Shown: positions 8,205-22,221 of the stretch, one piece after another
How the letters are laid out: every line of letters begins with the position of its first letter
Position numbering within the stretch: the first letter of the stretch is position 1
Assembly: GCA_016841265.1 (NCBI GenBank)
Contig: JAENZL010000008.1
Location: 59,085 to 106,143, forward strand
DNA length: 47,059 nt
From: Methanobacteriota archaeon
GTDB taxonomy: Archaea; Halobacteriota; Methanosarcinia; Methanosarcinales; Methanosarcinaceae
Reading direction: 5' to 3'
The notes under the pieces: model-generated
What the model saw: only the letters and a program-made list of their open reading frames with translations
Database searches by the model: none
Told to the model about the DNA's origin: nothing
Translations under genes and position numbers: made by a program

Positions 8205-9149
8205 TTAGATTCCTATTCCTGGTTCTACCTTTATTCTTGTCTTACTCACGTAGAGCCTGTCCAAGTCATTTCCACCTGATCCGGATGGGAAGGTTAAACT
8301 CACGTTGTTTTCGTTTTTGGTGATTGTAGTATCATCTGTTATCCTTGCATCTGCTATTGTTTCATTAAGATAAAGAGACCAGGCATCAGGATAGTCAGTA
8401 TTAACTGTTAAAGTGAAAGAGCTTATGTTGCCTGAACTGTCCTTATCGCTGTCATAAAGGGACCTAAACTCGTTGCCAGTGAGACGGAGTGAGCACCCTG
8501 TATTCGAGGATATGACGTCGGGGGGTGCATATACACTCTTAGCTATCTCCACAACGTGTATCGAAACATCGTATTCATTTGCCGGTGATCTGGAGAAGCG
8601 AATCGAAGGGTAAAGCATCATAGAAGACCGTTCCCCCTGGGAAAGGATCAAAGCCCCTCCTTCGTAAATAAAGTTCTGGTCCACATAATATCTGTTTTGT
8701 GAAGCGTAGCTTACAGTGCCATATTGGATTGTTTTGCTCCAGTTCTCTTCATTGGAGACTGCAGTCACCTTCATTTTACATTCTTCATTATTTGCGACCG
8801 AAAGAGTCCCGCTGGATTTTATGGTCCCGATAAGCGGGACATCTCCTCCCCCCATATGGAAAGGTACGTTCATAGTAACAGTATTCGAGGAATCCGGATC
8901 TGATGCCATGACTATGGTCATTAAGTCGATTTTTGATTTGAGTTCTGTCATGTCCCCCCAGACATCATTCATGTGGGAATATTCCGCATCGTTCTTCCAT
9001 TCCGGGATGTAGCCAAGCCTTACCACCGAAAATACCATAACAATGATCGCAAGCAGCAAAACCGCCCCCACAACGGTTGATGATGCAGATTCCGATCGGA
9101 GGAAAAAGGGCTTGCTTACCTGTGAACTTTTTGGATTCTTTTCTTTCAT
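8205..9149 (-). CDS. N-anchored 'YxPxWK' pilus-locus surface protein
   Basis: A 314-aa paralogue of the proteins at 6744-8195 and 14122-15033. After a basic leader (MKEKNPKSSQVSKPFFLR) come SESASSTVVGAVLLLAIIVM and YIPEWKNDAEYSHMNDVWGDM. Later motifs are MGGGDVPLI near residue 105 and YEGGALILSQGERSSM near 165. A single N-terminal hydrophobic helix with an outside body is inferred, consistent with a pilin-like subunit processed by an archaeal prepilin peptidase. A GGGAG motif lies about ten bases before the ATG. It sits between a long pilin and a second member of its own family, in one operon. Exact function is unknown. Confidence 0.7.
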   Translation of the reverse strand: MKEKNPKSSQVSKPFFLRSESASSTVVGAVLLLAIIVMVFSVVRLGYIPEWKNDAEYSHMNDVWGDMTELKSKIDLMTIVMASDPDSSNTVTMNVPFHMGGGDVPLIGTIKSSGTLSVANNEECKMKVTAVSNEENWSKTIQYGTVSYASQNRYYVDQNFIYEGGALILSQGERSSMMLYPSIRFSRSPANEYDVSIHVVEIAKSVYAPPDVISSNTGCSLRLTGNEFRSLYDSDKDSSGNISSFTLTVNTDYPDAWSLYLNETIADARITDDTTITKNENNVSLTFPSGSGGNDLDRLYVSKTRIKVEPGIGI

Positions 9150-9190
9150 ATGTCTTCAAACTCCCTGATTCGGATGCCCTTCTTCATGAA

Positions 9191-10165
9191 TCAATACTCC
9201 AGGTGGATTCCTATAAAGTCAATCCAGCCCTCTTTATCAGATTCATTCGCCGCATTCGGTGTAGTTGAGATATTTATTTCGATATCTTCCAGGTCTGTGG
9301 CATTTGTGATGTATGGAGTTATGTCAAATTCTTTTTCTACAAATTCACTGGTGATGGATTCGTTTTCCTTTTTGGGGAGCTCAAACACAATCCCCGGCAC
9401 ATTATTGATTCCCAATTCCAGTTTCGCACTCTGGTCATGTATTCTATAAACGATTTTCAGGATAACTTTGGAAAATGATATATCTTCTGAAATGCCCAGC
9501 TCTTCCAAACTACCAAAAGTAAAACTTTCGTATATATATTCATCTTGTGGAAAATCGTTCTCTGTAAAGTGTCCATCGCCTATTTGATTAACTATTTCCG
9601 GATCCCACCAATCGTCCTCGAAACTATCATACACACTTCCATAAGGATAAGGGGTTATCCAATCGGGCAAGTCTCCGAAATCTCTCCAGAGTGTTGTCTT
9701 CTGAATCACCTGGCTGGACGCCGTGTGCACGAAATAGAGGTCGATTGCATCTGCATCTTCAAGATTAACCTTACTGTTGGTGTCGATTACAATGCAATCC
9801 CCGAGCGTAAAGATGTCGTCAGAGGAGTTTGTACCATTGGAATCATAGACTTCGACACCAGGGTCAGACATATCGAATTCTACTTGTTGCCCGTCGACAT
9901 CGAGTATTATCTTGATGTATTTAAGGTCAATTTCGTCTCCCCCGCTGTGGAAGATCTGCACTTTATCTTTTGACGTGTCAATGTTTTCCTGCAGGTTGGT
10001 ATGCGGTGTATGCGGAGGGTCCATTGCCCCGCCCTCTGAAAATACGGCAAGCGATATTGCAGAAAAGGCGAGTACCACTATCGATATCATGAGTACTGCC
10101 CCTATTATCTCCGAAACTGCCCGGCAGTCCGGAGTAAGTTTCTTGCGCTTTTTGTTCCCCTCCAC
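9191..10165 (-). CDS. Long type IV pilin-like protein
   Basis: This 324-aa protein starts with the archaeal pilin signature: a basic leader MEGNKKRKKLTPDCR, then AVSEIIGAVLMISIVVLAFS (PF07790-type pilin N-terminus) and SEGGAMDPPHTPHTNLQENID. A conserved beta domain (IFHSGGDEIDLKYIKI..., TASSQVIQK) extends to about residue 165. A second domain from WRDFGDLPDW to the end carries aspartate-rich and N-glycosylation-like sequons. The start codon is GTG at 10165, seven bases after GAGGGTGA. The first half is closely related to the short pilin just upstream, including the upstream DNA. It is likely an exported pilus subunit; major or minor status is unknown. Confidence 0.8.
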   Translation of the reverse strand: MEGNKKRKKLTPDCRAVSEIIGAVLMISIVVLAFSAISLAVFSEGGAMDPPHTPHTNLQENIDTSKDKVQIFHSGGDEIDLKYIKIILDVDGQQVEFDMSDPGVEVYDSNGTNSSDDIFTLGDCIVIDTNSKVNLEDADAIDLYFVHTASSQVIQKTTLWRDFGDLPDWITPYPYGSVYDSFEDDWWDPEIVNQIGDGHFTENDFPQDEYIYESFTFGSLEELGISEDISFSKVILKIVYRIHDQSAKLELGINNVPGIVFELPKKENESITSEFVEKEFDITPYITNATDLEDIEINISTTPNAANESDKEGWIDFIGIHLEY

Positions 10166-10289
10166 TGAACAATCACCCTCTGAAAAATTATATCCCGACT
10201 TCTTACATTGTTATTTATTGAATATCAATTTGACTGTTTAATGATATCTTTAATGTAGTAAAGAATTTTTAATAATCCTCTAACTCTCT

Positions 10290-10772
10290 TCAGAGTATTG
10301 CCTTCTGAATCAACTGGCTGGATGCCGTGTACACGAAGTAGAGGCTGGCATTATTTGAGATGTTCACATTACTGCTGCTGGTGTTGATTATGATGTAATC
10401 TCCGAGCGTAAATACGTCATCAGAGGAAAGCTCGTTGCCCTGGGGGTCAAAAACTTTGACATTGGGGTCAGACATATTAAATTCTGCTTGCCGCCCGTCA
10501 GCGTCGTTGATTGTTATCTTGATGTACTTGATATCGATTGCTTCTCCCCCACTGTGGAATATCTCAATTATATCGCTCCCGTAATCTACGTTCTCCTGCA
10601 GGTCGGTACGCGGTGTATGCGGAGGGTTCATTGCTCCCCCGTCTGAGAATACGGCGAGTGATATTGAAGAAAAGGCAAGCACAACTATTGCGACCATTAA
10701 TACCTGCCCTATCAGTTCCGAAACTGCCCGACAGTCCTCAGTCAGTTTCCTGCGGTTTTTATTCCCCTCCAC
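10290..10772 (-). CDS. Type IV pilin, truncated paralogue
   Basis: This 160-aa pilin has the leader MEGNKNRRKLTEDCR, the core AVSELIGQVLMVAIVVLAFS and the beta domain IFHSGGEAIDIKYIKI. It is a close paralogue of the 324-aa pilin downstream. The frame stops at TASSQLIQKAIL, where the paralogue reads TASSQVIQKTTLWRDF: the Trp codon TGG is here TGA, and the next codons (AGA GAG TTA) still resemble the paralogue (AGA GAT TTC) before homology ends. It therefore appears to have lost its second domain after duplication. The protein could still work as a short pilin. The start is GTG after GAAGGTGA. It is divergent from the canonical pilin gene at 11196. Confidence 0.8.
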   Translation of the reverse strand: MEGNKNRRKLTEDCRAVSELIGQVLMVAIVVLAFSSISLAVFSDGGAMNPPHTPRTDLQENVDYGSDIIEIFHSGGEAIDIKYIKITINDADGRQAEFNMSDPNVKVFDPQGNELSSDDVFTLGDYIIINTSSSNVNISNNASLYFVYTASSQLIQKAIL

Positions 10773-11195
10773 TGAACAGTCACCTTCTATAAATTTGTCC
10801 TTCCACTTCTTATAATGTTGTTAATCAAATATTAATCTGACTGTAAAAAATTTCGGAAGATTTATTTATTTACTTCAATATATCTTCCAAAAAATATATC
10901 TACGTTGAATGCTAAATAACATTTGGGAGTTTGCAGCAAAAGTATATATGTAAATGACAAATAAAATAAAGTGCAGTTACTTAAAAATATAATTGTACAG
11001 TATTTAAATTCGTTCGTTAATGCGAATTCCGGCTTGGGGCCTGTTGCAAAATAGCCGATCTAATTTATCATTCGTTGTAACTTCGATTGAGGGTCAAGAT
11101 CATAAAAATCAACACTTTCAATCGAAGATTTACTTCGGTTATCTTGTGACGACTCCTTACTGCCTGAAATGCATTAACCGCAGGAGGGATATAAT
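10773..11195. other. Divergent promoter region between two pilin genes
   Basis: AT-rich 423-bp region. The part next to the short pilin (about 10795-10850) resembles the part upstream of the long pilin (about 10190-10242), both containing cttcttA.aatgtt...aatat.aat.tgactgt, so promoter and gene were duplicated together. On the plus side TATA-like runs lie at 10985-10993 and 11001-11008. The plus-strand leader holds an inverted repeat described separately. Confidence 0.6.
11081..11137 (+). promoter_or_regulatory. Leader hairpin with alternative fold before pilin
   Basis: In the 5' leader of the plus-strand pilin, 11081-11094 (CTTCGATTGAGGGT) can pair with 11114-11127 (ACTTTCAATCGAAG) as 14 consecutive pairs, two of them G.U, around a 19-nt loop. 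The end of the 3' arm, CGAAG at 11123-11127, can instead pair with CTTCG at 11133-11137. The two folds exclude each other. The ribosome site AGGAGG lies 45 nt further on. A regulatory role is inferred only. Confidence 0.45.
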
Positions 11196-11642
11196 ATGGA
11201 TTTAAAGAACATTTTCACGAAAGACGACGCAGTGTCCCCGGTTATCGGTGTCGTGCTGATGGTTGCAATCACCGTCATCCTCGCCGCTGCAATCGGTTCG
11301 TCCGTATTCGGCCAGGGACCATCAGAATCCGCACCGCAGGCGAACATTGACATAATTGTAGTGGATCAGGATACCATAAAGTTTGAGCACCTCGGTGGAG
11401 ACACCATCCTCTTAAATGACAGCCTTTCTACCAGGATTACTCTTGCAAACGAATCAGGAACCTTCGACCTTAATGCAAGCAATAGTACGGATTACTTTGA
11501 TGTTGGAGATACAGTGATTCTCGATCTGGTGGATGATGTCGCCAATGGTCCGTTGTCTCAGCCCAGTGGTGACTTTGTTACCGTCAAGATCGTTGATGTC
11601 AAGACAAAGCAGCTCGTAGCTGACAAGGAACTGAGATTCTAA
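11196..11642 (+). CDS. Type IV pilin, canonical short form
   Basis: This 148-aa exported pilin has a short leader MDLKNIFTKDD, then AVSPVIGVVLMVAITVILAA, the textbook archaeal pilin N-terminus (PF07790), with processing expected just before the hydrophobic stretch. The remaining ~115 residues form a beta-rich domain (IKFEHLGGDTILLND...) with acidic character and NXS/T sequons. A strong AGGAGG sits at 11181-11186, nine bases before the ATG, and a hairpin terminator follows the stop. This is the only pilus gene on the plus strand and has its own promoter and terminator. High expression as the major pilin is plausible but inferred. Confidence 0.88.
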   Translation: MDLKNIFTKDDAVSPVIGVVLMVAITVILAAAIGSSVFGQGPSESAPQANIDIIVVDQDTIKFEHLGGDTILLNDSLSTRITLANESGTFDLNASNSTDYFDVGDTVILDLVDDVANGPLSQPSGDFVTVKIVDVKTKQLVADKELRF

Positions 11643-12228: not shown

Positions 12229-14013
12229 GCCTAAGAAATGAATAATCCTAATGATAGCGTTTTTATTGAGTTGGCAGGTATTTTCCCAGGTTCAAGAAAG
12301 AGAATAATGATGCTTGCTTTGTGCTCATCTCTTCCATAATGATTTTACTTTCATTTGATTTTTTTTCCTGGACAACTGCCAGCCTTATTTCAGACAAATT
12401 TTCAATGAGTTTCCTCATAGAAAATCCATATCTCTTGGTTTCCCAGGCTAAATATCTGTAGAAAAGTAAACCAATTATAGACAGAAACACATGAACTCTA
12501 ATATTTTCATCTTTGTGATGATAAACAGGTCCTACAGGGACAAGCAAGTGATCGTTCAACAGCTTAAAATCATCCTCTATAGCGCCTTTGTTGTTGTATG
12601 TCTGCACAATTTTTGTAGTATGCCACTGATGTTTATCTGTAAACAGTAGATTTTTTCCAAATGATTTTTCACACTTGTTTTCATTTTCCTCATCAATCCA
12701 GAACTTTAACTGGGGCTTTTTCTTACCTTCCGGAACATCAGTTATTTCATATTTCACCACAGTCCTGTACTTTTTGATAATGATGTCAGCAACCTCTTTT
12801 TCCACACTGCTCCTGTTTCTCGCTTTTCCTCTGTTGCTTTCCAATCTCTTCTGTAGATCCTCCAAATTCTCAATTATTTTTGATTTATTTGATTCATAAG
12901 TTCTTTTTTGAAGTTTGTAAGTTCCTTCGTTGTAGGTTATCACGGTTGTAAACTCGGTCCCGTAAAACTGGTGCGTTGTCCGATATCCATAAATTTTATT
13001 GTCTTTTGAAGTTTCATATAAATGTTTAAATTTGGAGAGGGGAATATCAAGAAGCTCTTCGGCCTGATTTGCTTTTACAGCCCCTACAAAATTCATATTT
13101 GAAGTTACCTTCTCAATGTTGTCTTTAGAGTTGTTTCCTTTATCAAAAACAAGAACAAGGTCTTCAGAACAGATATTCAACTCAGACAGACGAGTTATTA
13201 TTCTGTCTATTAGGCCTGAAAATTCCTCTGAATCATGAACATTTCCAGGATATGTTTCGTGAATAAAAGGTATGTTATAATCATTTGCAGCCAGTGCTAC
13301 AGATACCTGATTTTTGTCTTTACGATGCTTTTTGTTATACCCTTTATGAAGAAGTTCACTTTTTTCATCATGATTGGTAGCATAGGTAAACCAGTTTGAT
13401 TCATCCACAAATAGTACAGAAGGAGTTAATCCCTTTTTTACAAGAACTTGGCACAGATCGTCCTCGATCTTTTTCATTGTGTCAGAATCGATGTAGCTCA
13501 TTTGATTCAAGAAATTCTGACAACTTAATCTGTGTGGAAAGTTCCACATAAAAGCTAAGGTGGATTTATTGAACCATTCATCGATACCGTTTTCACTTAG
13601 AATTCCATGACTTTTTCCTATTATATCAAGTAAAAGATATTCCCCTACACTCAAACCATCTATTGACTTTTTTTCAGTGTAACTATTTACGATGTCAACA
13701 AATCCAAATTCTTCATTCACATGAAGAAGTGCGGCAACTTTGCCGTATTCAAAGGATCTAAGTTTAATATAGGGCAATGATTCACACAGGTTTTTCATCT
13801 CAAGTATCTTTTCTGCGTTGCCCAAATAGACCTGAAAAATAGTTTTCACTTTTCCATTAACTCTACCAGTTTTAACAATATACCAGTATGCTTTACCGTT
13901 GATAAGTTTCTGTTTTAAAAAAACCATATAGTTTATTTAGGCATTACATATATAAACAATTTTCTAAAAAAACAATATCAATTGACTTTTTAAAGTGAAT
14001 TAGATACTTAGGC
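12229..14013 (-). mobile_element. IS1634-like insertion sequence
   Basis: A single transposase gene fills this ~1.8-kb element. Candidate terminal inverted repeats are GCCTAAG at 12229-12235 and CTTAGGC at 14007-14013; similarity continues weakly outside (TTTGTGTAG against TTTGTAGA), so the true ends could lie a few bases further out. I found no clear target-site duplication. The element sits between the pilin gene at 11196 and the surface-protein gene at 14122, separating the two halves of the pilus locus. Confidence 0.6.
12263..13927 (-). CDS. IS1634-family (IS4-type) DDE transposase
   Basis: This 554-aa transposase appears intact. The N-terminus (MVFLKQKLINGKAYWYIVKT) and length fit the IS1634 family. 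Catalytic acidic residues are recognisable: Asp in SVLFVDESNWF near residue 173, Asp in LVLVFDKGNNSKDN near 260, and Glu in NNKGAIEDDFKLLND near 450, the last in the Y-(2)-R-(3)-E-like region before the C-terminal HVFLSIIGLLFYRYL helix. The frame has no stops or frameshifts, so recent activity is possible. Codon usage is more AT-rich than in the flanking genes, as expected for a mobile gene. The reading direction is the same as most of the pilus genes. Confidence 0.92.
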   Translation of the reverse strand: MVFLKQKLINGKAYWYIVKTGRVNGKVKTIFQVYLGNAEKILEMKNLCESLPYIKLRSFEYGKVAALLHVNEEFGFVDIVNSYTEKKSIDGLSVGEYLLLDIIGKSHGILSENGIDEWFNKSTLAFMWNFPHRLSCQNFLNQMSYIDSDTMKKIEDDLCQVLVKKGLTPSVLFVDESNWFTYATNHDEKSELLHKGYNKKHRKDKNQVSVALAANDYNIPFIHETYPGNVHDSEEFSGLIDRIITRLSELNICSEDLVLVFDKGNNSKDNIEKVTSNMNFVGAVKANQAEELLDIPLSKFKHLYETSKDNKIYGYRTTHQFYGTEFTTVITYNEGTYKLQKRTYESNKSKIIENLEDLQKRLESNRGKARNRSSVEKEVADIIIKKYRTVVKYEITDVPEGKKKPQLKFWIDEENENKCEKSFGKNLLFTDKHQWHTTKIVQTYNNKGAIEDDFKLLNDHLLVPVGPVYHHKDENIRVHVFLSIIGLLFYRYLAWETKRYGFSMRKLIENLSEIRLAVVQEKKSNESKIIMEEMSTKQASLFSFLNLGKYLPTQ

Positions 14014-15064: not shown

Positions 15065-16030
15065 TTAACTTACATATAATGCTATGTAGTCTACATTCAG
15101 GCTTTTTTCCGTTACGTTAGTATTTGCTGTGGCCAGCAGCCGGACCTTAAAATTCGCTACATCCTCACTGCAATTTATATAGGCAGATAGGTCCATTGAT
15201 TCAGACGTAAATGAATTGTGCTCCAGGAGGCTTTCATCATGCCATTTGCTGGAGGGGTCCTGGTCCCATACCCTAAGTATTAAGTCTTTGCATGAGTTGT
15301 CGTTTACCCTGTAAACGATGTTTAGGGTCACATTCGTAACATTGTCTTCCGGTCCGATTCCCCATAACGAGGGATGTACCCCAAAATTAAACTCTTCGTA
15401 TATACTGGTACTGTAAGGGTTAGGTGGGTGGTAGGTAGTGGAATACATATCATCGCTTTGATATACATCAAAGGGGGTCGCAGAGCCTCCGATTGACGTA
15501 TCTGTCACTGTTCCCTGAGGAGTTACCCAGTCGGAACTGGTTTCCCCCAGAGAAAGAGTCAGGTACTGGATCACCTGCCTTGAAGTTTTATCTATCAGGA
15601 AGACCTTGACTTCGTCTTCATCCGTAATGTCAATTCCCCATTCGCTGCTCGTATCAATTTCTATTGTGTCACCCAGTTGCCAGCTGCTACTGTTGCCGAG
15701 ATTCGTATAAATATCGTCTGAGGAATAAACATACCTTTCTCCGTTGATGCTTGCAGCGATTTCAAGGGCGTCGGTTTCGAGAAACTCCCCCCCGCTGTGT
15801 TCCAGATAGATCGTATCGGTATCTTCGTCCATCCACTCTTTTACCTGGGTGTGGGGGATGTCAGTAGCTCCGTCATATGTGGATATGAATATGGCAATAG
15901 AGCTGACCAGAAGGACTGCTATAGTCGTCAGGAGGACCTCCCCCATAACCTCCGAAACAGCGGAACGGTTTTTTATGAGTTTTTTATCACCAGACAAAAG
16001 GATCCCTCTTTTCAACACTCTTAGCATCAT
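15065..16030 (-). CDS. Long type IV pilin-like protein
   Basis: This 321-aa protein begins with a longer basic leader (MMLRVLKRGILLSGDKKLIKNR), then AVSEVMGEVLLTTIAVLLVS, an archaeal pilin core. Its first domain (IYLEHSGGEFLETDALEIAA..., TSRQVIQYLTL) and second domain (SDWVTPQGTVTDTS..., ending NVDYIALYVS) follow the same plan as the long pilins at 9191 and 16107. The second domain includes YEEFNFGVHPSLWGIGPEDNVTNVTL and an NIVYRVNDNS strand. GGAAGAAAAG precedes the start; a second ATG follows immediately. It is probably an exported pilus subunit or pseudopilin. It is the second pilin after the platform gene. Confidence 0.78.
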   Translation of the reverse strand: MMLRVLKRGILLSGDKKLIKNRSAVSEVMGEVLLTTIAVLLVSSIAIFISTYDGATDIPHTQVKEWMDEDTDTIYLEHSGGEFLETDALEIAASINGERYVYSSDDIYTNLGNSSSWQLGDTIEIDTSSEWGIDITDEDEVKVFLIDKTSRQVIQYLTLSLGETSSDWVTPQGTVTDTSIGGSATPFDVYQSDDMYSTTYHPPNPYSTSIYEEFNFGVHPSLWGIGPEDNVTNVTLNIVYRVNDNSCKDLILRVWDQDPSSKWHDESLLEHNSFTSESMDLSAYINCSEDVANFKVRLLATANTNVTEKSLNVDYIALYVS

Positions 16031-16106: not shown

Positions 16107-17099
16107 TTATTGTACCCACAAACCCAGATAATCGATGTTTACTTCTTTATTGGCATTTTCGTTTGCGTTCCCTACAGCTTGAAACTTAATCTTGAAATTT
16201 GCAAGGTCAGTGGTGGTATTGATGTAAGGTGTGAGGTTTATGCTTGTAACGTTAAAGTCATTATTTTCTGGAAGTTCCACTTCTACGGAATTCCATTCCA
16301 GGGGGTTGTCCACGTCATAAAATCTCAAATCTATTTTCAGGAGAGAGTTGTCATTTGTTTTGTAAGCTATTTTAAGAGTTACGTTTGAAAAACTATCTCC
16401 CGGCCTGAACCCGTAATAGCAGGGATTTATCCCAAAATCAAATTCCTGGTATACATTCGGGTCTGTTTCATTCCCAACTGCCGTAGGTGGAAAATAGGTT
16501 GTATATGCGCTATCGTTTTTTTCATTATTTTTAAACCCTATCCAGTCCTCAATAAGGACCTGGGAGAGTTTTGCAGACCCGTTCGAGGTGTCTATTACTT
16601 CTCCCTGTGGGGTGACCCAGCCGAAAAAACGTTGCCTAGTTCTAAAGTCAGTAGTCAGCTCGACTTTCTGGATCAACTCTTTCGTGGGGGTATCGACAAT
16701 ATAGAAGTCTATCTGGTGGGTGTCCTTCAGGTTAAGGCCCCATTCGCTGCTCGCATTGATAACCAGAACTTCTCCAAGTTCCCAGTGGCTTTTGTTTCCA
16801 AGGTCCTCGCATATTTTGGATGAAGGGTAAACATACCTTTTCCCGTTGATATTGGCCACTATTTCCAGTTCGTCGATCCTTATCGCTTCCCCGGAGCAGT
16901 GCTTGATGTAGATGGTCTCATCCTCGGTGTCCATCCACTCCTGCAGGCTGGCATGGGGTAGGTCGTCCGGGGCATCCCGGGAAAATACGAACGCTCCCTC
17001 GACACTGAGCATGATTACCACAATGCCTACGAGGAGCGCTACTCCCATTGTTTCCGATACAGCCCTGTCATTTTTCATGAAACTTTTTCGCTCGGACAC
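16107..17099 (-). CDS. Long type IV pilin-like protein
   Basis: I choose the GTG at 17099 (330 aa, VSERKSFMKNDR...), because AGGGGGAG lies at the right distance just before it; an in-frame GTG six codons upstream would have that site inside the gene. The pilin core is AVSETMGVALLVGIVVIMLS. The following domains match the neighbour at 15065: HASLQEWMDTEDETIYIKH, RIDELEIVANINGKRYVYPS, FGWVTPQGEVIDTSNG, VYQEFDFGINPCYYGFRPG and a final NIDYLGLWV. The gene starts 24 bp after the platform gene stops, so they share a transcript. The pair probably arose by tandem duplication. Exported pilus subunit, role inferred. Confidence 0.8.
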   Translation of the reverse strand: MSERKSFMKNDRAVSETMGVALLVGIVVIMLSVEGAFVFSRDAPDDLPHASLQEWMDTEDETIYIKHCSGEAIRIDELEIVANINGKRYVYPSSKICEDLGNKSHWELGEVLVINASSEWGLNLKDTHQIDFYIVDTPTKELIQKVELTTDFRTRQRFFGWVTPQGEVIDTSNGSAKLSQVLIEDWIGFKNNEKNDSAYTTYFPPTAVGNETDPNVYQEFDFGINPCYYGFRPGDSFSNVTLKIAYKTNDNSLLKIDLRFYDVDNPLEWNSVEVELPENNDFNVTSINLTPYINTTTDLANFKIKFQAVGNANENANKEVNIDYLGLWVQ

Positions 17100-17123
17100 C
17101 TGATCTCCCCCTTTCACGGCCTA

Positions 17124-19109
17124 TCATACAAAGAATGTGAACAGCAGATATGTGACTATCATCATGCTGACACTGTACTTCAGGCCCATGTATGCTGAGC
17201 CGTGCCCCATCTTCCCTGCAACCAGCCCTGAAGTGAAGCCCTGGACCAGGGCCGAGTGGAACATGAGCATCGTGTACTCTTCGATATTGAAGAAGCTGTT
17301 TCCAACTCCCCCGTACCCGCCTCCATTGGCTGAGTTTTTAAACGAGGCGCTTTCGGGGAAGAAGTACACGCTCAGGATGTAGACAATGAAAAGGAAGACA
17401 AAGAAAGCCACGTAGATGGTGAAAATGTAGACCACCATTTCCGAAGAGCGTTCTTTCTTCAGCCTTTCCTCGCTCTTGACCTGTTCCGAAGTGATGTAAA
17501 GTACGTTTTTCAGGTCGCTTGTGGACTCATTCGCCTTTATCAGGGTATGGAGAATCCGGGTTGACACGGCGGTCCTGATACTATTTTCAAGTTTCATCAG
17601 GGCTCTTGAAGTGGAAGTCCCCCAGGAAACGTCTTCCTTCAGTTTTTTAAGTTCTTTACTCAGGATCCCCATTTTGGAGTCTGCCATGATTTTCAGGGAA
17701 TTGGATAGCAGGATCCCCGAGTCGTTCATGCTGGAAAGGCTCCTCAGGAAATCGGGCATCCTCTCGTCAATCTTTCGTATCCTCCAGGCCCTAATTTCGT
17801 AAAAAATAATGAAAGGAATCAGGGCGACGGAAAGGAAAATGACGATGTAATCATCAAGCCCGGTGAACAGTTCAATGCTGTTACTGCTGATGTGGGCAAA
17901 GTTGGGGTTCCAGTGGAAGCCTAAATCCATATTCGGAATTGTACTCGGGAGGCGGGCAAGATAGAATAACCCCAGAGGGATTCCGAAAACGAAAGTGTAT
18001 CTGGGCTCGTCCCGGATAGACCTGTAAGGGTTGAATATGATTTCCCTTATATTGAAGAGCTGTCTGTATAGGCTGAATTTTTTCTTCCGCTCTACCTCTT
18101 CTTCTTCACTCAAGCCGGAGTCTATCTCTGGAATATCGGAAAGGTTCAGGGAAAACCCGGAAACTTTGGCTTTTTCAGGGTTCAGGCCAAGTTCTCCTAT
18201 GGTGTCCAGAAGCACAAGGAAAAGCATGCTCGACAGGGGTATTATCACGTAAATAAGCATGTAGAGGATCTGAGCCGAAGCCGGGCGGAAGAATTGGAGC
18301 ACGACAAGGGTTGTCATTATGAAAAGGGGGCCTGCTACCAGCACTGTCACGTAAACTTCAGCCAGGACGTCAAGCCTCTTTAACAGGTTCCGGTTTGCCA
18401 GTTCGGCCATGTCCTGGTACTGTTCTGCCTTGTTTTTGATATACTCCGTCACGCTCCCACTGCTTGAAACAAGGATCAGCCCTTCTACAAAATCCTTGAA
18501 GCGTTCCGATGGGGTCCGTTCCTTGGCATCTTTAAGGGCAGTTATGAAATCTTTGCCCAGGTAGTCCATATCCCTCACGATATAGGAGATTTCCTCGGCA
18601 CTTGCCCCGAAGATATGGGTATACGAGCTCAAAGACCTGAATACGTCAAAGAGAGACATGCCCCCTTTTGTCAGGGCATAAATGTAGGTTACTGCCGGAA
18701 GCATTGATTTTTCGATACAGGCATTGCGGATATCTGCCTGAAGATAGGGGTAGATATATGCAAGGCCGAAGATGAACAGGAATCCTAGCAAAAAGAAAAC
18801 AATGGCGCTTAAAAATGCGAGGAGATACAGGTGGTCTCCCGCAAAGCCTACCCGCACGGAGTCCGCAAAGAGACTGAGGCGTGCCCCGGGATCTGCAAAT
18901 GTCTTAAGGCCCAGCCATAGCCCGAAAACCCCTCCGATGAAGCCCGAGAGCAGTGAATAAAATAAGGTCGAAGCCAGGTACTGGTCCACGGGCGTGGAAA
19001 TATGTGATTGGCGTATCTTTACCCTTAGCACTTTGAAGCTTTCTTTATTTTTATAAAGATAATCCCCGAAAGCCTGATACGCTAGCTCGTCCACAGGTGT
19101 AAAAGTCAT
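17124..19109 (-). CDS. TadC/FlaJ-like type IV pilus platform protein
   Basis: This 661-aa integral membrane protein carries two type II secretion F-like (T2SSF) repeats, as in archaeal TadC/PilC/FlaJ. Hydrophobic segments are visible near residues 48-70 (LFYSLLSGFIGGVFGLWLGL), 95-125, 245-300 (VYVTVLVAGPLFIMTTLVVL and LIYVIIPLSSMLFLVLL), 365-385, 405-430, 555-580 and at the C-terminus. Cytoplasmic loops hold T2SSF-type motifs such as KGGMSLFDVFRSLS and SMNDSGILLSNSLKIMADS. It is the inner-membrane platform on which the motor ATPase drives pilin assembly. ATG 19109 follows GGGGGGAG and lies 13 bp after the ATPase stop, so the two are translationally linked. Confidence 0.9.
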   Translation of the reverse strand: MTFTPVDELAYQAFGDYLYKNKESFKVLRVKIRQSHISTPVDQYLASTLFYSLLSGFIGGVFGLWLGLKTFADPGARLSLFADSVRVGFAGDHLYLLAFLSAIVFFLLGFLFIFGLAYIYPYLQADIRNACIEKSMLPAVTYIYALTKGGMSLFDVFRSLSSYTHIFGASAEEISYIVRDMDYLGKDFITALKDAKERTPSERFKDFVEGLILVSSSGSVTEYIKNKAEQYQDMAELANRNLLKRLDVLAEVYVTVLVAGPLFIMTTLVVLQFFRPASAQILYMLIYVIIPLSSMLFLVLLDTIGELGLNPEKAKVSGFSLNLSDIPEIDSGLSEEEEVERKKKFSLYRQLFNIREIIFNPYRSIRDEPRYTFVFGIPLGLFYLARLPSTIPNMDLGFHWNPNFAHISSNSIELFTGLDDYIVIFLSVALIPFIIFYEIRAWRIRKIDERMPDFLRSLSSMNDSGILLSNSLKIMADSKMGILSKELKKLKEDVSWGTSTSRALMKLENSIRTAVSTRILHTLIKANESTSDLKNVLYITSEQVKSEERLKKERSSEMVVYIFTIYVAFFVFLFIVYILSVYFFPESASFKNSANGGGYGGVGNSFFNIEEYTMLMFHSALVQGFTSGLVAGKMGHGSAYMGLKYSVSMMIVTYLLFTFFV

Positions 19110-19121
19110 ATGCTCCCCCCT

Positions 19122-21212
19122 TCAATTCACCATAGTCTCGATCATATCCTTCAGGTTGTCATTTTCTATGTATTCCATGACCATCTTCGGATAACTCTGA
19201 TATGCCTGCACCACCAGGGACACCTGGATGTAATCCCTCATGTCCTTCTCGTACATGTAGGTCAGGATTTTCATCCTGTTTTCAATTTCCTGCCGCAGCC
19301 GGCTGGTATCCCAGCCCCGCACATGCATGATGTCCTGAAGGAGGTAAGAGTCCCCTACCTTGGCAAAGCAATCCCCTGAAGGTTCCCAGTTGAAAAGTTC
19401 GTTTATGCTCAGGTCTTCGGTTTCCGGGTCCACGTTAAGGACTTCCACGAGGCTCCGGCTCCTCCTCACTCTTTCCTCGTCTATGTATACCTGTTCCTGG
19501 ATACAGAGCACGTCCAGGGACTGCAGCATAAGGTGGGGCACGTTGATTGGTTCGTGGGTAAGCCTGTTTATAACGGTCTGGACGTCCCCTGCGTGCATGG
19601 TCGAACTGGTCGCATGTCCCGTAGACATCGCCTGGAATAAAGTAAGGGCTTCTTTGCCCCTCACTTCACCCACTATGATATAATCCGGGCGTTGCCTGAG
19701 GGAAGCTCTCAAAAGGTCGTACATGGAAACTTCGCCGGCACTGTCGGAGGTGAAGCTTTCTCTTGAGATTCCGGAAATCCAGTTGTTGTGGTAGAGTAAA
19801 AGTTCCCTGGTGTCTTCAATAGAAACGATCTTTGCGGTGGAAGGCATGAAAAGGGAGGTTGCATTAAGCATCGAAGTCTTCCCTGATGCGGTTCCACCTG
19901 CAAAAAGAATGTTATAGCCGTTTTCAATTACAAGCCAGAGATAGATTAGCATTTCCAGGTCACATGTCTTGAAATTGAGCAGGTCGATAGGAGTGATCGG
20001 GTCTTTCCTGAACTTACGGATGGTAAAGGTACTTCCGCGGGGGGTGATCTCCCTGCCGAGCATTGCCTGGAGCCTTGACCCGTCAAGGATTGTCGCGTCC
20101 ACGATAGGCTGGCTCACGGAGATGTGCTTGTTATTAAGCTGGCACATCTTGATTACCAGAGAATCAAGCTCGTCTTCTTCAAAGGAAATGTTGCTTTCGA
20201 TGTTGAAATACCTGGTATGGTAAATGTAAACGGGAACCCCCACCCCGTCACATGAGATGTCCTCAATATAAGGGTCATGAAGAAGAGGATTGATTTTTTC
20301 GTAACCAAGCAGGTTCCTTCGAAGGTAATACATAATCCTGTAAAGGGTTGATGTTGAAAGTTCGGCCCTGTAGCGTTCGAGCAGGTAAAGGGTCCTGTCA
20401 ATCAGGAGTGTTTCCTTTTCGAATCTGGAAGTGGTTGGGTTCAGGACCAGGATGTCCTGGAAGTCTTCATAGATCCGTTCTAGCATTTCTTTTTCGAATT
20501 TCGTCAGGGCAGGTTCAACCAGCTTGTAATACCTGGTTCTCCTATCTTCGAGAATTGATATAAACGCATAAGGCTCCTGAATCCAGTACCTCTCTACTTC
20601 CTTTAACCCCTCGGGTATTTCAAAAGAAGTAAGTGGGCCATCTATTTCAGGTTTGTAATCCGGAAGGGTGCGTAGAGGTTTTTCAAAAAGGCTTTTTGCC
20701 TTTTCCATTATTTCCGCAATAAATTCATTATTTTCAATCAATCCGGAAATAAAGCCATATTTTCCTGATATTTTTTTACCGCTTCCCTTATTTTCGGCTT
20801 CGGTTGTTTCCCCCAAATCTGGAATTTTCTCTTCCAGTTCCTGTGTAGTTTCCCCTAATTCCAGTGTCACTTCTTCTGACTCCTGAGCAGTCTCCCCTAA
20901 CCCCATTGTCATTTCCTCTAACTCCTGAGCAGTTTCCCCTAACTCCTGAGTAGTCTCCTCTAACTCCAGCGTTGTTTCCTCTAATCCCTGAGTAGTTCCC
21001 CCTAATTCCAGTGTCACTTCTTCTGACTCCTGAGCAGTCTCCCCTAACCCCATTGTCATTTCCTCTAACTCCTGAGCAGTTTCTCCTGGCTCCGGAGTTG
21101 TCTCCCCTAGCTCTGGAGTTGTTTCTTCCAGCTCCTGAGTTGTTTCCCCTAGCTCTGGAGTTGTTTCCTCCAAATCTTGAGCTATTTCTTGCGAATCTCG
21201 AGGCATCTCCAT
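19122..21212 (-). CDS. Type IV pilus/secretion ATPase with heptad-repeat N-terminus
   Basis: About 696 aa. Residues ~8-140 are an acidic repeat built from 7-residue units of the form E(T/M)TxELx/ETAQELE, rich in Glu, Thr and Leu and free of aromatic residues; a coiled coil or extended acidic rod is likely. From ~140 the sequence is a standard archaeal PilT/TadA/VirB11-class motor: N-domain with ERYWIQEPYAFISIL, Walker A GGTASGKTS near 436, SIEDTREL (Asp box), Walker B-region YIIVGEVRGKEA near 510, and a His box STGHATSSTMHAGD. It hydrolyses ATP at the cytoplasmic membrane to power pilin assembly. TTG at 21215 is in frame, but ATG at 21212 is better; a TATA box 22-30 bp upstream suggests a leaderless transcript. 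Confidence 0.92.
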   Translation of the reverse strand: MEMPRDSQEIAQDLEETTPELGETTQELEETTPELGETTPEPGETAQELEEMTMGLGETAQESEEVTLELGGTTQGLEETTLELEETTQELGETAQELEEMTMGLGETAQESEEVTLELGETTQELEEKIPDLGETTEAENKGSGKKISGKYGFISGLIENNEFIAEIMEKAKSLFEKPLRTLPDYKPEIDGPLTSFEIPEGLKEVERYWIQEPYAFISILEDRRTRYYKLVEPALTKFEKEMLERIYEDFQDILVLNPTTSRFEKETLLIDRTLYLLERYRAELSTSTLYRIMYYLRRNLLGYEKINPLLHDPYIEDISCDGVGVPVYIYHTRYFNIESNISFEEDELDSLVIKMCQLNNKHISVSQPIVDATILDGSRLQAMLGREITPRGSTFTIRKFRKDPITPIDLLNFKTCDLEMLIYLWLVIENGYNILFAGGTASGKTSMLNATSLFMPSTAKIVSIEDTRELLLYHNNWISGISRESFTSDSAGEVSMYDLLRASLRQRPDYIIVGEVRGKEALTLFQAMSTGHATSSTMHAGDVQTVINRLTHEPINVPHLMLQSLDVLCIQEQVYIDEERVRRSRSLVEVLNVDPETEDLSINELFNWEPSGDCFAKVGDSYLLQDIMHVRGWDTSRLRQEIENRMKILTYMYEKDMRDYIQVSLVVQAYQSYPKMVMEYIENDNLKDMIETMVN
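20852..21083 (-). repeat. Heptad-coding repeats with an 85-bp exact duplication
   Basis: The whole stretch ~20815-21195 is built on a 21-bp (7-codon) period. Within it 20852-20936 and 20999-21083 are identical over 85 bp, offset by 147 bp, that is 49 codons or seven heptads. The exactness suggests a recent in-frame unequal exchange, so copy number may vary between strains. Confidence 0.93.
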
Positions 21213-21233: not shown

Positions 21234-21241
21234 TCTTATAA
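21234..21241 (-). promoter_or_regulatory. TATA box of the pilus motor gene
   Basis: On the minus strand TTTATAAG lies 22-29 bases upstream of the ATG at 21212. That spacing would put transcription start at or next to the ATG, with no Shine-Dalgarno in between, consistent with a leaderless mRNA for the pilus operon. Confidence 0.5.
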
Positions 21242-21495
21242 AAACTTTCTATCTCTCTGTCCGATTTTATCTAATTTTTATCCTTTTTTTCTTCATTAAT
21301 ATCTATATATTTTTATCCTTCTCTCTTCCTATTCCGCATGTTATCGATTATGTATTTCTATTACCAATTTAATGTTTATTCTTTTTCTGAATTAATATTG
21401 AAATAGATAATATTTGGACATATATCTTCATAAATATTTAATTCTAAAACTGCTTCATAACCGGCTACGAAACCCAATATAATTCAAAAAAGTTT

Positions 21496-21516: not shown

Positions 21517-22221
21517 TTATTTTATCCTGATCCCGGACGAGGTTAGCTCAAACTGGACATTTTCAAGGGAAAGCTCTGTGGCGCGCATCTTTGCTACCGA
21601 AAGGTGGCGTGAAAATCTTCCACTTATGGCATCTTCCCTGAGGTTCAGTTCGATTTTCCCAAAGACCAGGTAGTCTGCAAAACCCTTAAGCTGCCGATGG
21701 GCACGGTCGTCCATGAGGAAAAGGGATGTGCAGCCGTGTTCTGCCAGGGTCCTGTAGATAGGGTCGAACTTTTTGAAAGGGTCTCCTCCAACACAGCCCT
21801 GCGTACTTGTGAAGGCTCCAAGGCTGTCCTGAACAACAACTTCAACATCTTTTGAGAGAATTTTTATTTGCGATATCCTGTCTTTTTCCCTTATTTCAAG
21901 CCCTTTTCCCAGACGTGAAGAAGAAATTGTTTCCCGGATACGGTTTTCAAAAACATTTTCTACCACAAGTGTTCCTGAATTTATAAACGGCTCAAGGTCC
22001 ATCCCCAGGTCTTTCGATTGCAGGATCAGGTCTTCTAGAAGTCCCCTTGTCAGGATCAAAAGCCCCTTCTTTCCGGCGCTGCAGTTACTGTATAAAAAAT
22101 GTATCCCGAAGATTGTTTTTCCGGAACCTGTGGGTCCTGTGATAAGGATTCCTTTTCCTTCAGGGTACCCGCCTCCCAGGTAGGGGTCAAGGTCCTCGAT
22201 CCCGCTTGTTATTCGCTCCAT
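21517..22221 (-). CDS. KaiC/RAD55-like RecA-superfamily ATPase
   Basis: This 234-aa single-domain ATPase has ITSGIEDLDPYLGGGYPEG at residues 4-22, Walker A ITGPTGSGKT near 27-36, and a Walker B-like strand VEVVVQDSLGAF near 125-136. This is the KaiC/GvpD/RAD55 group, which also includes the archaellum regulator-like ATPase FlaH. Archaeal members often regulate neighbouring systems, and placement upstream of the pilus operon on the same strand suggests a FlaH-like or signalling role, but a terminator lies between them. The Walker B strand keeps an Asp but lacks the usual following Glu. AGGAG precedes the ATG. Recombination or clock functions are not indicated. Confidence 0.82.
   Translation of the reverse strand: MERITSGIEDLDPYLGGGYPEGKGILITGPTGSGKTIFGIHFLYSNCSAGKKGLLILTRGLLEDLILQSKDLGMDLEPFINSGTLVVENVFENRIRETISSSRLGKGLEIREKDRISQIKILSKDVEVVVQDSLGAFTSTQGCVGGDPFKKFDPIYRTLAEHGCTSLFLMDDRAHRQLKGFADYLVFGKIELNLREDAISGRFSRHLSVAKMRATELSLENVQFELTSSGIRIK

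Follow-up and report, generated by a model that had tools for sequence, protein, structure and literature searches.

Why does the motor ATPase of an archaeal pilus begin with well over one hundred residues of acidic, seven-residue repeat, and is this arm a genuine and translated part of the protein? The question is raised by a gene in a stretch of 47,059 nucleotides from a Methanosarcinaceae archaeon, called the window below.

The pilus ATPase gene and its heptad array

The open reading frame lies on the minus strand (19122..21212) and encodes 696 amino acids from a conserved ATG at position 21212, with a TTG one codon further upstream. Its product matches the T2SSE family (PF00437, Pfam E=1.2e-32) as well as PilB3_N (30.3 bits) and PilB3_C (30.0 bits), the latter two above the gathering cut-off of 27. 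The Walker A motif reads GGTASGKT, and GxTASGKT is invariant across the alignment. The nearest solved structures are those of archaeal GspE (2oap, E=2.8e-135) and also FlaI, and a search with the predicted fold returned the same top matches. A T2SSF/TadC platform protein of 661 amino acids is encoded directly downstream (17124..19109, minus strand), followed by two pilins with the archaeal type IV pilin N-terminus (Pilin_N; 16107..17117 and 15065..16030, both minus strand). The frame is an archaeal PilB3-like pilus assembly ATPase, and the naming of a pilus motor ATPase in the preliminary description was thus correct, as were its coordinates, with the minus strand as the coding strand. The protein shares its ATPase core, its N- and C-terminal domains and an operon with TadC and pilins with PilB3-like ATPases and archaeal GspE (PDB 2oap/2oaq); the solved GspE chain has 511 amino acids and its match to the window ATPase starts after the arm. 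The papers found on archaeal PilB3-like/GspE ATPases describe no heptad repeat.

The arm consists of 18 tandem acidic heptads in strict register (residues 14-139; 20796..21173, minus strand) with the consensus L-[G/E]-E-T-T-Q-E and a net charge of -40 over 126 residues. This agrees with the approximately 130 residues of near-perfect heptads that had been described ahead of the ATPase; the stretch cited for them was correctly located but took in the first 13 residues of the protein and omitted the last heptad. The two identical 85-bp blocks that had been noted are present on the minus strand, one at 20999-21083 and one further along the gene at 20852-20936, and their offset of 147 bp corresponds to exactly seven heptads. 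Codon-shuffled arms contained longest exact repeats of 11 bp on average and 18 bp at most, and shuffling the order of the units gave exact repeats of 66 bp or less in 2,000 trials. Tandem Repeats Finder reported periods of 21 and 147 for the arm.

Copy number and coding constraint within the host genus

The host was compared with three sister genomes (G001, G002 and G003) of its genus, which is probably GTDB MTP4. All four genomes carry the heptad arm. The window genome has 18 units, G001 (assembled as a single contig) 21, G002 13 and G003 at least 20, of which 5 precede and 15 follow a run of Ns. The first heptad unit and the segment KGSGKKI[S/A]GKYGFIS after the arm are common to the genus, which shows that the arms are homologous. 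Every genome carries exact duplications of its own within the arm (85 bp at 7 units, 61 bp at 1 unit, 41 bp at 2 units and 77 bp at 8 units), so the number of units kept changing while the ATPase core stayed 94-98% identical. An assembly error was also considered as the origin of the repeat and is ruled out by the presence of the arm in four genomes, including the single-contig one, despite the gap inside the G003 repeat; the genome-specific duplications point the same way. The differences between species amount to whole heptads, as was expected in the preliminary description, in which the arm was proposed to grow or shrink in frame. The sequences thus show a 21-bp minisatellite within the ATPase gene, at its 5' end, that has gained and lost whole units with the reading frame intact.

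Within the arm, comparison of the units in each of the four genomes gave a pN/pS of 0.33, 0.28, 0.51 and 0.30. Between species it was 0.28-0.58 for the arm, where the alignment of units is uncertain wherever duplications differ, versus 0.07-0.12 for the core. Substitutions favour synonymous sites, and the arm is therefore very likely translated and mildly constrained; the ratios support weak purifying selection, which holds the acidic heptad pattern only loosely. Translation could instead begin after the repeat, leaving an untranslated leader, and SD-like GGAG motifs within the repeat and a TTG at its end would suit such a start. This reading is most improbable, given that the in-frame synonymous bias is found in all genomes, that the next ATG is reached only past the conserved FISGL motif and that a conserved ATG and a TATA-like box stand just before the arm. 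This box, TTTTTATAAG, lies approximately 28 nt upstream of the ATPase ATG (21235..21244, minus strand) and would be expected to yield a near-leaderless mRNA containing the arm. In G002 it is altered by a one-base deletion and one substitution; the start ATG is conserved among the genomes of the genus. Neither of the two refutations named in the preliminary description holds, given the coding constraint in frame, which argues for translation, and the repeat in every one of the four genomes.

Predicted disorder of the arm and the tails of relatives

Coiled-coil and disorder prediction had been suggested as a check of the arm, which had been proposed to act as an interaction rod. AlphaFold2, run with 25 sequences, returned pLDDT values of 22-39 for residues 1-160 and mixed values for the central ATPase region, whereas most values exceeded 80 in the N-terminal domain (residues 181-250) and the C-terminal region (residues 511-696). 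A segment with pLDDT below 50 covers residues 1-161 (20730..21212, minus strand) and is predicted to be disordered; the low values are consistent with disorder but no proof of it, given the shallow alignment for the arm. The arm also falls on the disordered side in a charge-hydropathy analysis. A coiled-coil rod or oligomerisation arm projecting from the hexamer would fit the strict seven-residue period, a weak sequence match to the designed antiparallel coiled coils 8qae and 8a3k and one low-confidence helix predicted by AlphaFold2 at residues 81-102. Such a rod requires hydrophobic residues at both a and d and few Gly or Pro residues, whereas the heptads offer one hydrophobic position (Leu in 54 of 67 units), place Thr at the would-be second core position and carry Gly at position 2 in about half of the units and Pro at position 6 in 13 of 67. 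With pLDDT below 40 throughout the arm as well, a rod is very unlikely, and the predictions favour disorder over the interaction rod of the preliminary description.

Most Methanosarcina orthologues have approximately 560 amino acids, lack the arm and begin shortly before the conserved FISGL motif. At the site of the arm, low-complexity inserts unrelated to the heptads are present in the KYL-1 orthologue, as DGSIVEGIDENT repeats, and in a second genus, as a Ser/Glu-rich arm of the SESEPE type. N-terminal extensions of approximately 130-366 amino acids occur in the second PilB3-like paralogue and in a third group. They are mostly predicted to be disordered, a charge-hydropathy plot likewise places them with disordered sequences, and they show no period of seven except for a weaker one in the paralogue L008. 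The period-7 autocorrelation reached z = 8-14 for the arm in the four genomes of the genus, and most other extensions gave values of approximately 0. No convincing case of the arm heptad turned up in other genes across 112 genomes of the family; the weak matches that were inspected lay in low-complexity frames of unclear nature, in a surface-repeat protein and in a protein resembling chemoreceptors. A comparison of the arm DNA with plasmids gave no match. In this family, long disordered N-termini are thus commonplace, and among the genomes searched a clean heptad array is confined to the host genus. The earlier statement that such arms are not part of standard archaeal secretion ATPases was accordingly too strong.

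Possible role of the tail and neighbouring repeats

The favoured reading, to which we assign a probability of roughly 55%, is that the disordered N-terminal tail carried by many archaeal PilB3-like ATPases has taken the form of a tandem repeat in this lineage, and that it tunes but does not drive the motor. Duplication and loss of whole units in the 21-bp minisatellite change the length of the tail in steps of seven residues. If the motor is hexameric, as is taken from its family, six tails with a charge of approximately -40 each would give it a flexible acidic fringe on its N-terminal side, the one facing the platform or the membrane. These tails may tune the level, docking or speed of the motor, with assembly not being powered by them. 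Their length would be free to drift, since a tail of this kind would serve as a tether or entropic spacer rather than a folded element. Matching of charges between arm and TadC was tried as a basis for docking. The net charge of the platform protein is -1 in the window genome, +1 and -4 in sister species and 0 to +10 elsewhere, and as it shows no shift that follows the arm, electrostatic docking to TadC gains no support.

The proposed function is drawn by analogy from CpaF and FlaI, which are distant homologues that do not share the arm sequence. Removal of the disordered N-terminus of Caulobacter CpaF is reported to spare ATPase activity and to lower pilus extension and retraction (PMC12019362), and a related study describes reduced retraction upon loss of this region, NTD0 (PMC11300603). 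Like the arm, NTD0 of CpaF (TadA) is a disordered tail that precedes the N-terminal domains in a pilus motor and occurs in some orthologues only, with most of them reported to lack it (PMC12019362, PMC11300603); residues 1-161 of the window ATPase form such a segment by prediction from a shallow alignment. Unlike the arm, NTD0 has 79 residues, belongs to a bacterial Tad system and is not described as a tandem repeat in the parts of these sources that are drawn on here. In Sulfolobus ArlI/FlaI, the first 29 residues are needed for rotation and not for assembly (PMC8978795), i.e. a short N-terminal segment modulates function and is dispensable for assembly, as is proposed for the arm; it differs in its length and in adjoining a three-helix bundle. 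Periscope proteins (PMC8201768) also have a length set by the copy number of in-frame tandem repeats, but they are bacterial surface proteins with folded repeat domains, whereas the arm stands at the start of a cytoplasmic ATPase and is predicted to be disordered. By analogy, a flexible acidic tail that modulates the motor, with a role comparable to that of the disordered region of CpaF, is most likely.

Counting against a role of the tail is that most Methanosarcina manage without the arm. The main rival explanation is that the N-terminus tolerates insertions and that the minisatellite expanded by slippage or recombination with no specific benefit, as near-neutral filler. This explanation is favoured by relatives that have unrelated sequences in this place, or none in most Methanosarcina, by the freely changing number of units and by a constraint several-fold weaker than that of the core. 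We regard it as less likely than a tuning tail, though by no firm margin: pN/pS stays below 1, the L, E and T positions are kept and all four genomes retained the arm while its sequence diverged. A still less probable proposal is that the number of heptads varies among strains as an evolvable tuning knob and sets pilus output through the assembly rate or the ATPase level, which would make the arm the length-variable regulator suggested in the preliminary description. In its favour, the length of the arm differs by whole heptads from species to species and the exact duplications are genome-specific; the changes stay in frame, and the arm is therefore not an on/off switch. What is unusual is a disordered motor tail that is a coding minisatellite in one genus, long disordered tails being common in this motor family. 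The disordered tails of archaeal pilus motors are rapidly replaced, and in one lineage the tail became a repeat that can grow or shorten without loss of frame. As cultured Methanosarcina have arm-free orthologues, simple swaps could test whether the tail tunes pilus dynamics.

Several further repeats were observed in related proteins. L008, the second PilB3-like paralogue of G003, contains N-terminal EGEKEGG repeats with a period of seven (z 5.7), stronger than in this paralogue of the sister genomes, and its reading frame is shorter (675 versus 836-881 amino acids). In a more distant secretion ATPase paralogue (L016, L017 and L018), the C-terminal tail bears FETDFETDFEAD-type repeats and varies in length between genomes, with an N gap in L017; it is another case in the host genus of a pilus-type ATPase with a terminal in-frame repeat. 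In Methanosarcina, the protein L108 (genome G077) combines a signal-like start with a long array of EVTEPTE heptads, a similar coding heptad repeat that is unrelated to the ATPase arm.

A KaiC-like ATPase, a possible regulator, is encoded at 21517-22221, immediately upstream of the pilus ATPase and on the same (minus) strand; a 2016 census of archaeal type IV pili found KaiC-family ATPases to be often associated with such loci (PMC4858521). The translations further suggest a second pilin-like gene cluster at 8205-11642 and a transposase-like reading frame (12263-13927) between this cluster and the pilins of the ATPase operon. At the window edge, positions 1-74 consist of a perfect tandem repeat of 19 bp in 3.9 copies.
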